Below are positions 3,166 through 35,824 of a DNA stretch of 64,000 nt, piece by piece. The notes below the pieces were generated by a model. That model did no database searches, was not told the DNA's origin, and was given only the letters and a program-made list of their open reading frames with translations. The translations under genes and the position numbers were made by a program. This DNA comes from Emcibacteraceae bacterium (GTDB taxonomy: Bacteria; Pseudomonadota; Alphaproteobacteria; Sphingomonadales; Emcibacteraceae): NCBI GenBank assembly GCA_021774795.1, contig JAJFIR010000006.1:62001-126000 (forward strand), given 5' to 3'. The first letter of the stretch is position 1. Every line of letters begins with the position of its first letter.

Positions 3166-4275
3166 ATGTCAGACGAAGAAGAAATTGATGATGATGCAGT
3201 TGCTGCCGAATGGGAAGCAATGGCAGGTGCAGACGCGGATGGTGATGGCGAAAGCGATGGCGAAAGCGATGATGAAGGCGCCGATGATATGGCATCGGCC
3301 ATGGGTACTGACCGGGTCCTTGATCAAACGGAAATTGATAGCCTGCTTGGTTTTGATGGGGATGAAGATGAAGGCGGTACAAAAACAGGCGTTCAAGCAC
3401 TCATAAATAGCGGATTGGTTGCGTATGAACGTCTTCCAATGCTTGATATTATTTTTGATCGATATGTGCGGATGATGTCAACGTCACTGCGCAACTTTAC
3501 TTCCGATAACTTTGAAGTGTCCATTGATAGTATGACATCTATTCGGTTCGGCGATTATCTGAATAGTATCCCGCTTCCCGCAATGTTAGCGGTATTTGAA
3601 GCGAAAGAATGGGAAAATCACGGGCTTATCACGATCGACAGTAACATGATCTATTCCGTGGTGGATGCGTTGCTAGGCGGACGTCGGGGCAATGCACCAA
3701 TGCGCATCGAAGGTCGACCTTATACGACTATTGAACATACATTAGTGGGGGAAATGCTTAACGTTATGCTCAAGGATCTTTGCGGTGCGTTTGAACCTTT
3801 AAGTCCGGTAAAATTTGAATTAGACCGAATGGAAACTAACCCGAGATTTGCGACAATCGCGCAATCAAGTAATGCGGCTTTGTTGATTAAAATGCGCGCT
3901 GACATGGCGGACCGCGGTGGAAAAATGGAACTGGTACTGCCGTACGCAACAATTGAGCCTATCCGCGAGTTATTGTTGCAGCGTTATATGGGTGAAAAAT
4001 TCGGTCGCGATAGCATCTGGGAATCCCATCTGGCTAATGAAATTTTAATGACTGATGTCGATTTGGACGCCGTTTTAGATGAACAGAAAATGACGCTTGG
4101 CGAAGTCATGAATTTTGAAATAGGTCAGACTTTAATGCTCAATGTCGGGCAAGATGCCGATGTAGATATAAGATGTTCTGGTGTTTCGATGTTAAAAGGA
4201 AAAACAGGGACGATTGGCCGCCACAAAGCAATAAGAGTTGAACGTGTTGTGAACATGGATGAAAGAGCTCAATGA
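3166..4275 (+). CDS. fliM: FliM, flagellar motor switch protein with a long acidic N-terminus
   Basis: C-ring subunit that receives phospho-CheY and sets rotation direction. The first 50 residues are almost only Asp, Glu, Ala and Gly. The CheY-binding peptide follows (VLDQTEIDSLLGF, residues 51-63), whereas in E. coli it lies at the extreme N-terminus. The middle domain begins near residue 78 (GVQALINSGLVAYERLPML) and a C-terminal SpoA/FliN-like domain covers about 280-369 (LGEVMNFEIGQTLMLN). The 369-residue length is about 35 above E. coli FliM, explained by the acidic extension. The stop overlaps the next ATG (ATGA), indicating coupled translation. Confidence 0.97.
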   Translation: MSDEEEIDDDAVAAEWEAMAGADADGDGESDGESDDEGADDMASAMGTDRVLDQTEIDSLLGFDGDEDEGGTKTGVQALINSGLVAYERLPMLDIIFDRYVRMMSTSLRNFTSDNFEVSIDSMTSIRFGDYLNSIPLPAMLAVFEAKEWENHGLITIDSNMIYSVVDALLGGRRGNAPMRIEGRPYTTIEHTLVGEMLNVMLKDLCGAFEPLSPVKFELDRMETNPRFATIAQSSNAALLIKMRADMADRGGKMELVLPYATIEPIRELLLQRYMGEKFGRDSIWESHLANEILMTDVDLDAVLDEQKMTLGEVMNFEIGQTLMLNVGQDADVDIRCSGVSMLKGKTGTIGRHKAIRVERVVNMDERAQ

Positions 4276-5520: not shown

Positions 5521-6171
5521 ATGTTAGGGAAAAGGGCAGTTGTAGAAGGTCAATGCGAAAGTTACGATCTGAAAAATAATAATCAGATTTCTGCGGATGA
5601 AGTAACGAAAATTGCTTCAATAGTCAAAGAAACTATTGATGGCAGCTCACCTACAGAAGACATTCAAATAAAAGAAGAAATTAGATATCTTTTATCCTTC
5701 GTTGATCAGGCTAAAGAAGAAATTTCATCATTACGACCAAAGGAATACAGCACTAATAAATTACCGGCGGCTTGCGGTGAGTTGGATGCAATTGTTTCTG
5801 GAACGGAAGAGGCCGCTGGCAAAGTTATGGACTGTGCAGACGAATTAAGTGAAGTTTCTGAAAAATGCAATGACGAAGTTAAGCAGCAACTTGGGGATAT
5901 TTCAGTCAAGTTATTCGAAGCTTCAAGCTTTCAGGATATTACGGGACAGCGGGTTACCAAAGTCGTGACGACATTGGTCCATTTGGAAGAAAGGTTGTCA
6001 GCCTTAGCGGATGCTATGGGTGACAATGATGTTGATGAGGTCGTCAGTGATGATGACAATGTCGATAAAGATTACGATGCTATGGCAAATGAAGAGTTTA
6101 CACATGGTCCGCAACTTGACGGCGAGGCGAAGGACCAGGCGGCAATTGATGCGTTGCTTGATGATTTTTAA
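5521..6171 (+). CDS. cheZ: CheZ-type CheY-phosphate phosphatase
   Basis: Dephosphorylates phospho-CheY. The diagnostic catalytic motif is FQDITGQRV, with Asp139 and Gln143 matching the catalytic Asp and Gln of E. coli CheZ (DLTGQ). Long amphipathic helices (about 50-170) would form the CheZ four-helix bundle. An acidic linker (170-200) leads to a C-terminal CheY-binding peptide, DQAAIDALLDDF, the counterpart of the E. coli CheZ tail. At 216 residues it has the normal length. It follows a CtrA-type box and starts a run with two MotB-like genes and a TPR gene. The ATG is preceded by a GGAG at 5511-5514. Confidence 0.88.
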   Translation: MLGKRAVVEGQCESYDLKNNNQISADEVTKIASIVKETIDGSSPTEDIQIKEEIRYLLSFVDQAKEEISSLRPKEYSTNKLPAACGELDAIVSGTEEAAGKVMDCADELSEVSEKCNDEVKQQLGDISVKLFEASSFQDITGQRVTKVVTTLVHLEERLSALADAMGDNDVDEVVSDDDNVDKDYDAMANEEFTHGPQLDGEAKDQAAIDALLDDF

Positions 6172-35275: not shown

Positions 35276-35824
35276 TCAATCGAAAAGAGCATCGATGGCG
35301 TTTTGGGCATTTTCGCCCGAATGATCATTTTCCGCCTCATCGGCGAAATAATCGTCAATTACGGCTTGCTCGGATGTTATTTCTTTGCTGTTTATTATGG
35401 ACGAGCATTCTTCAATTAAACTTTCCATTTTTGGCGAATAGTCACCAACAAGAAGGTTTAATTGATCAATATTTTGATTTTTTAACGCACTTTCAACTTC
35501 CACTATCGTTTTAGATAGTAATTCACCCATTTCAAAGACACACTTTTCGAAGGGCAGTTTGTATCTTTGCGGTGAATGTTCGTATGCTGCTATGGCTAAG
35601 TCTTTATCTTGAAACACACTATGCTTAAAATGTTTCTGGTATGATATGGCCTTCCATTCGACAATATCTTCGATACAATCCGGCATTTCAGAAACCATGC
35701 CGAGCAACATGTGAATTTCATTAAAATGATTAAGATAATCAGTCGCTAGTAGCGTTTGTGGATTAATATTCTTCCCGTCCACCAGCTTTTGATATTTTTT
35801 ATAATCCGCGCCTTGGTTGTCCAT
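35276..35824 (-). CDS. Conserved-looking alpha-helical protein ending in a CheY-binding-like peptide (unknown)
   Basis: I do not recognise a named family. The 182 residues have no signal or membrane segment, so it is cytoplasmic. The body is mainly helical (LLATDYLNHFNEIHMLLGMV, WKAISYQKHFKHSVFQDKD, FEMGELLSKTIVEVESALKN). A flexible acidic stretch leads to the C-terminus AQNAIDALFD. That resembles the FliM and CheZ peptides of this same window (DQTEIDSLLGF and DQAAIDALLDDF), which bind CheY. I infer that it may bind CheY or a similar receiver domain. It lies between the efflux operon and glnA, separated from glnA by a terminator. Confidence 0.65.
   Translation of the reverse strand: MDNQGADYKKYQKLVDGKNINPQTLLATDYLNHFNEIHMLLGMVSEMPDCIEDIVEWKAISYQKHFKHSVFQDKDLAIAAYEHSPQRYKLPFEKCVFEMGELLSKTIVEVESALKNQNIDQLNLLVGDYSPKMESLIEECSSIINSKEITSEQAVIDDYFADEAENDHSGENAQNAIDALFD

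Follow-up and report, generated by a model that had tools for sequence, protein, structure and literature searches.

The 64,000-nucleotide stretch of DNA analysed here (the window) encodes an unnamed protein of 182 amino acids, P0001 (ORF and translation at 35276..35824, minus strand), and the question that it raises is what this protein binds. CheY, the textbook example of a diffusible signal, has few known targets, and the first-pass annotation had noticed that the C-terminus of P0001 (the last 11 residues, NAQNAIDALFD, encoded at 35279-35311) looks like a CheY-binding peptide. The resemblance is real. The gene also lies far from the motility block, as stated then, at a distance of about 20 kb from the flagellar genes of the window. 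Named by eye, the flanking ORFs are an RND efflux pair on one side and glnA-glnB on the other, and glnA and glnB adjoin the gene in two other genomes (G012 and G015) as well.

Searches of Pfam, NCBIfam and PADLOC with P0001 gave no family, and PHROGs returned two weak matches only (E = 0.13 and 0.23). The 37 members of a family alignment, A1, gave weak matches only (best E about 0.007). No FliM or FliMN_C domain was found in P0001 or listed for the A1 members. AlphaFold predicts a confident, all-helical core for residues 11-140 (block means 94-98). The most conserved part of the core is residues 19-85 (35570..35770, minus strand; pLDDT 94-97), comprising the TDYLNHFNE helix together with W57, Y62, H65 and F66. 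Residues 86-144 (35393..35569, minus strand) form two long helices, predicted at 86-115 and 119-144, with weakly conserved sequence; the mean frequency of the top residue is 0.71 over residues 19-85 versus 0.38 over residues 86-144 in 171 sequences. In the 171-member alignment the near-invariant residues are 26-36 (LATDYLNHFNE), W57, Y62, H65, F66 and A80, and their clustering suggests that the core may have a working site there. Sequence-profile and fold comparisons with the PDB returned nothing beyond weak matches to helical bundles, and we therefore propose no fold name. Foldseek found no PDB match at E < 0.001, and VIA-align gave Z values of 8.7 or less, within the range of that tool for common helical arrangements.

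The tail that follows the core is acidic. AlphaFold models it with low confidence and places short helices at residues 153-163 and 173-180, which are two copies of the motif. The copy at the C-terminus is QNAIDALF (residues 174-181; 35282..35305, minus strand). The other is QAVIDDYF (residues 153-160; 35345..35368, minus strand), identified by MAFFT alignment with the motif of other members; it sits just after the last core helix and had been overlooked in the first-pass annotation. In most members the motif directly follows the last core helix and aligns to residues 153-160 of P0001, so it is the C-terminal QNAIDALF that is the second copy. Such an ending is not readily produced by chance. 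If 10-residue tails are sampled at the residue frequencies of 40 ORFs of the window, about 0.02 proteins out of an assumed 3700 would be expected to carry QxxI/VDxLF two residues or fewer from their end. A pattern search of the whole-genome DNA gave 17 matches versus 2 for a reversed-pattern control, and among ORFs of at least 60 codons around the 17 matches only P0001 and one CheZ end in QxxIDxLF.

Two proteins of the flagellar cluster in the window carry the related peptides that had been reported for them, and Pfam confirms both families. FliM (ORF 3166-4275; PF02154, E = 1e-59) has DQTEIDSLLGF at residues 53-63 (3322..3354, plus strand, positions counted by hand). CheZ (ORF 5521-6171; PF04344, E = 4e-11) has the C-terminal motif DQAAIDALLDDF (6133..6168, plus strand). 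Both are of the LL type. The first-pass annotation gives SQAEIDALLN for E. coli FliM. Passages of PMC5677366 give the FliM consensus as LSQxEIDxLL and report that changing the I-D pair of Caulobacter FliM abolishes receiver binding; in those of PMC6946799 CheY binds the EIDAL motif of FliM. The I-D pair needed in Caulobacter FliM is the one kept by the P0001 family.

We compared a profile of the P0001 family with one built from 115 alphaproteobacterial CheZ sequences of the genomes searched. They matched with a probability of 95% (E = 2.3e-8, score 59.1 over 23 columns), the match being confined to the tail, where ...IINS...QxxIDxLF of the family aligns with ...LLNGP...DQxEIDALL of CheZ. One hundred column-shuffled CheZ alignments scored 18.8 or less and the reversed alignment scored 18.5, and the P0001 core compared with the CheZ core gave a probability of 0.8%. 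The tails are therefore alike far beyond chance, and the bodies show no relation. P0001 thus has, by sequence match, a CheZ-type C-terminal peptide after a flexible linker. That P0001 is itself a CheZ was rejected since its core does not match the CheZ core. P0001 did not match the CheZ domain (PF04344), nor did the 37 A1 members at E = 0.1, and the catalytic D-x-x-x-Q of the CheZ FQDxTGQ stretch is absent among the conserved positions of the family.

How well is the tail kept? P0001 is carried by 66 of the 99 genomes of a set of relatives (own genome included), where absences rest on a single-sequence search and may be misses, and by 64 of 290 genomes in a class sample examined by profile search. 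A pattern scan of GTDB genomes gave at least 574 confirmed stretches of the family, of which 80 were kept. The 216 loci assembled yielded 190 unique ORFs, and 187 of these have a complete 3' end. QxxID is kept in 178 of these 187, and 156 have QxxI/VDx[LFIM] inside the last 30 residues; shuffled tails averaged 1.8 and never exceeded 5 in 200 rounds. The full pattern is lacking in 31 ORFs. In 22 of these QxxID is intact and the last position holds another residue (e.g. Thalassospira SQDEIDAALAL); another four carry a single change at Q, I or D, and L163 carries two. L042 and L238 are truncated or frameshifted, and in L227 and L228 the motif is gone. These last two keep the core but end in a basic tail where the motif would be, and no FliM or CheZ match was found in either genome (G148 and G217). 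It had been anticipated that the motif might prove absent or variable in orthologues, in which event the original reading would fall. Instead, across 171 non-redundant members Q, I and D are conserved at 96%, 91% and 98%, a level that matches much of the core, and the linker is variable in both sequence and length.

Fifteen ORFs have two or three full motif matches in the last 100 residues (that of L263 is a possible chance match in the core). One of them, L054 (2913-3575, minus strand), has three tandem QxxIDALFD copies on its tail, which is a putative natural multivalent peptide. Duplication of copies with a variable linker would be the behavior expected from a docking peptide. In a single-contig genome (L261; G318:C1:2024200-2026300) an ORF of 125 codons joins the first half of the core directly to DQESVDALLDL; the two long helices are missing and the motif is kept. 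We have considered that the tail could be a generic acidic amphipathic end, such as a degradation tag or a solubility tail, its likeness to FliM and CheZ being convergent. The P0001 tail is indeed acidic, of low AlphaFold confidence and located at the extreme C-terminus. Yet conservation centers on Q, I and D rather than on the last residues, copies of the motif are also internal and tandem as in L054, and the CheZ profile match is far above the shuffled controls, so we regard this explanation as improbable.

The final residues of the motif differ with lineage. Members in Rhodospirillales have tails such as DQxEIDxLL and SQDEIDAALAL, ending in LL, LM or similar. Azospirillum brasilense Sp7 has, at 982047-982502 of record NZ_CP012915.1, a relative of P0001 ending ...EQAEIDLYLSAE, and in one annotated Azospirillum record the relative is a hypothetical protein. 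In all three Azospirillum records looked at, phyR adjoins the relative on the opposite strand (L402 4540-5334, L403 3251-4054 and L404 about 3182-3961); Pfam PhyR_sigma2 was matched in L402. PhyR is the general stress response regulator. A PhyR search of 88 loci plus the window found none at 85 of the 86 other loci, nor in the window, and one weak match (L105). A link of the family to the general stress response was dropped because phyR is near only the Azospirillum records and, weakly, L105. More generally, when the neighboring ORFs of 80 loci were clustered, no cluster was common to more than 21 of the 80, a count that remains compatible with a che gene at single loci as the ORFs were clustered and not annotated. 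The one cluster that reached 22 corresponds to an ORF running antisense to the P0001 gene.

In the set of relatives CheZ was matched in 66/66 carriers versus 6/33 non-carriers and FliM in 60/66 versus 17/33, counts that ignore shared ancestry. In the class sample, with counts that again take no account of ancestry, CheZ was found in 59/64 carriers versus 56/226 others and FliM in 56/64 versus 108/226. Restricting this sample to FliM-bearing genomes leaves CheZ in 54/56 carriers versus 52/108 others, also uncorrected for shared ancestry. In one family of the order (f6) the sole carrier found, G075, is also the sole genome with a CheZ match. The presence of P0001 tracks CheZ better than FliM, and the co-occurrence with CheZ fits a receiver partner.

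Carriers without a FliM match exist, and strict coupling to the flagellum was accordingly rejected. There are eight of these among the 64 carriers of the class sample, two of which have FlhA (G129 and G361), and six among the 66 in the set of relatives, three of them less than 80% complete. No FliM, FlhA or CheW match was found in G001, G003 and G005, which are draft genomes from the same genus (92-96% complete). All three keep P0001 with an intact motif, the receiver that we call CheY2 below (93-96% identity) and a CheZ behind CheY2, although in the G001 assembly the end of that CheZ is aberrant. These genomes also bear upon the idea that the partner is some other protein that recognizes the EIDAL motif of FliM. 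FlhG, a flagellar ATPase, binds the same FliM motif, and since the core of the P0001 motif is that of FliM, a docking peptide, FlhG or another non-receiver protein could be the partner. But CheZ, which acts on CheY, has this motif too, and at the three same-genus loci (L004, L009 and L010) P0001 and its motif are kept without a FliM or FlhA match. A partner of this kind seems to us very improbable.

If the partner is a receiver, which one might it be? On another contig the genome has a cheY2-cheZ2 pair (G000:C25:382660-384143), cheY2 lying directly before cheZ2. Of the single-domain receivers compared, CheY2 stands nearest to E. coli CheY, with 57% identity over 122 residues; the CheY encoded in the cheA operon has 39% and the others about 30% or less. 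In the PDB, CheY2 is matched best by CheY entries from enterobacteria (E = 4e-44). CheZ2, the second CheZ of this genome and the one picked out by the pattern search above, ends in SQEDIDSLFA, which is of the LF type. It has two copies of the motif (L084 7047-8144), an inner DQGEVDSLM and the C-terminal SQEDIDSLF, in parallel with P0001; other CheZ ORFs with two copies were also seen. An EAL-domain gene (PF00563; L084 8150-9340, minus strand) lies tail to tail with the pair.

The LF tail narrows the partner beyond what the first-pass annotation proposed, for it is common to CheZ2 and the members in the order, unlike FliM and the flagellar CheZ of this genome, which are LL. Across the order 58 of the 63 family ORFs counted have an LF tail (allowing Q/T and I/V/A). 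CheZ with a receiver gene just upstream has LF in 30/33 cases, the others being two aberrant ends and one LL, and CheZ where no upstream receiver was detected has LL in 10/12 (9/11 without a double-counted gene); these 45 ORFs are a selection of CheZ matches with one gene entered twice. At the level of the class the LF/LL split blurs, with LF tails in 28/43 CheZ without a receiver and 16/32 with one. In G361 the family tail is EQDEIDELLNH, versus SQDDIDALFD for the CheZ behind a receiver.

There are further exceptions. Five carriers (G129, G181, G217, G253 and G380) gave no close match to CheY2, the best identity there being 33-40%, and G129, G181 and G380 nonetheless keep the motif. CheZ was not matched in five of the 64 class carriers (G115, G148, G159, G181 and G217); the motif persists in G159 and G181. 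Conversely, CheY2 and CheZ are present with no P0001-family match in G007, G033, G049 and G051. Strict coupling to CheY2 or to CheZ is unsupported, given G129, G181, G380 and G159. The two genomes where the motif is lost, G148 and G217, have no FliM or CheZ match (G148 has CheW and a 65% relative of CheY2), and loss of the motif accompanying loss of the partner is only suggestive because G181 keeps it with no match for CheZ, FliM, FlhA or CheW and no close CheY2. As the motif is kept without CheZ or without a close CheY2, the receiver partner of the family may differ between lineages. The original proposal of CheY or another receiver as partner gains from retention of the motif, the match to CheZ tails and the co-occurrence with CheZ; it is qualified by the genomes that keep the motif where a CheZ match or a close CheY2 is lacking.

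Taken from the sequence evidence, P0001 is probably an unrecognized CheY partner, common to many Alphaproteobacteria. Our best reading, to which we give moderate confidence, is of a helical protein whose tail peptides of the FliM/CheZ type, one or two in number, bind a CheY-type receiver, the likeliest being CheY2. The α4-β5-α5 face of CheY takes the FliM and CheZ peptides. We infer that the same face of phosphorylated CheY2, or of another single-domain receiver in some lineages, would dock on one or both of the tail peptides of P0001. P0001 would then either serve as a further output target of CheY2-P or compete for it. CheZ2, with the same LF-type tail, would compete for this face of CheY2 and reset the receiver.

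Might P0001 rather act upon the receiver, as an auxiliary phosphatase, a partner of the phosphatase or a polar anchor? The site would be D29-x-x-N32-x-x-N35-E36 in the first long helix of the core, where D29, N32 and N35 are 99% and E36 is 98% conserved in 171 family sequences. The near-constant company of CheZ counts in its favor, as does the layout of CheZ, a four-helix bundle, linker and C-terminal helix (PMC7750401, in part), which P0001 resembles. The same passages have the protein anchoring polar CheZ in Azorhizobium as not known. On the other side the profiles of the family and of CheZ show no relation beyond the tail, there is no CheZ-type FQDxTGQ among the conserved positions, and a second phosphatase is not obviously needed where CheZ is present in nearly all carriers. 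We think this rather unlikely, and favor an output or competitor role over a CheZ-like one. On a further reading, since the three same-genus genomes without FliM, FlhA and CheW matches keep CheY2, CheZ and P0001, a CheY-peptide switch could have been redeployed from the flagellar motor. CheY2, CheZ2 and P0001 might in that event form a three-part signaling branch with a non-flagellar target and a kinase other than a CheA array, a possibility that we hold only tentatively.

In the family, with its 574 or more stretches, a putative CheY docking peptide is carried on an unrelated body. If that is correct it would either supply a missing chemotaxis partner in Alphaproteobacteria or demonstrate that a CheY-CheZ pair can operate without a flagellum. 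Six tail strings gave no match in the literature, but the family is nameless and a text search is therefore a weak guide to novelty. The family is absent from the passages considered of PMC5677366, PMC6946799, PMC3774744, PMC7750401, PMC8563088, PMC8429497 and PMC8100600. Those of PMC8100600 describe published cheY mutants of Azospirillum brasilense Sp7, the strain that has a P0001 relative.

Several known systems can be compared with P0001. In passages of PMC8429497, Azorhizobium caulinodans has a cheY-cheZ cluster that lies 37 kb away from its main one, a separate pair away from the main che genes as in this genome. Those passages name no third partner like P0001, and the likeness is one of gene layout alone. 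ChePep of the Epsilonproteobacteria is a lineage-specific CheZ accessory according to passages of PMC7750401, and we cite it purely as a functional parallel to P0001. The N-terminal peptide of FliM (LSQxEIDxLL or EIDAL) is Q-x-x-I-D-x-L on a flexible acidic end with I-D central, as in P0001. The peptide of the P0001 family differs in being C-terminal, often LF rather than LL and sometimes present in two or three copies, and there is no FliM domain. Compared with CheZ, the P0001 core is without a match and the catalytic stretch is missing. Yet the C-terminal peptide of CheZ resembles that of P0001 in position, linker and sequence, and within the order the P0001 family has the LF subtype seen in the CheZ of the orphan pair.
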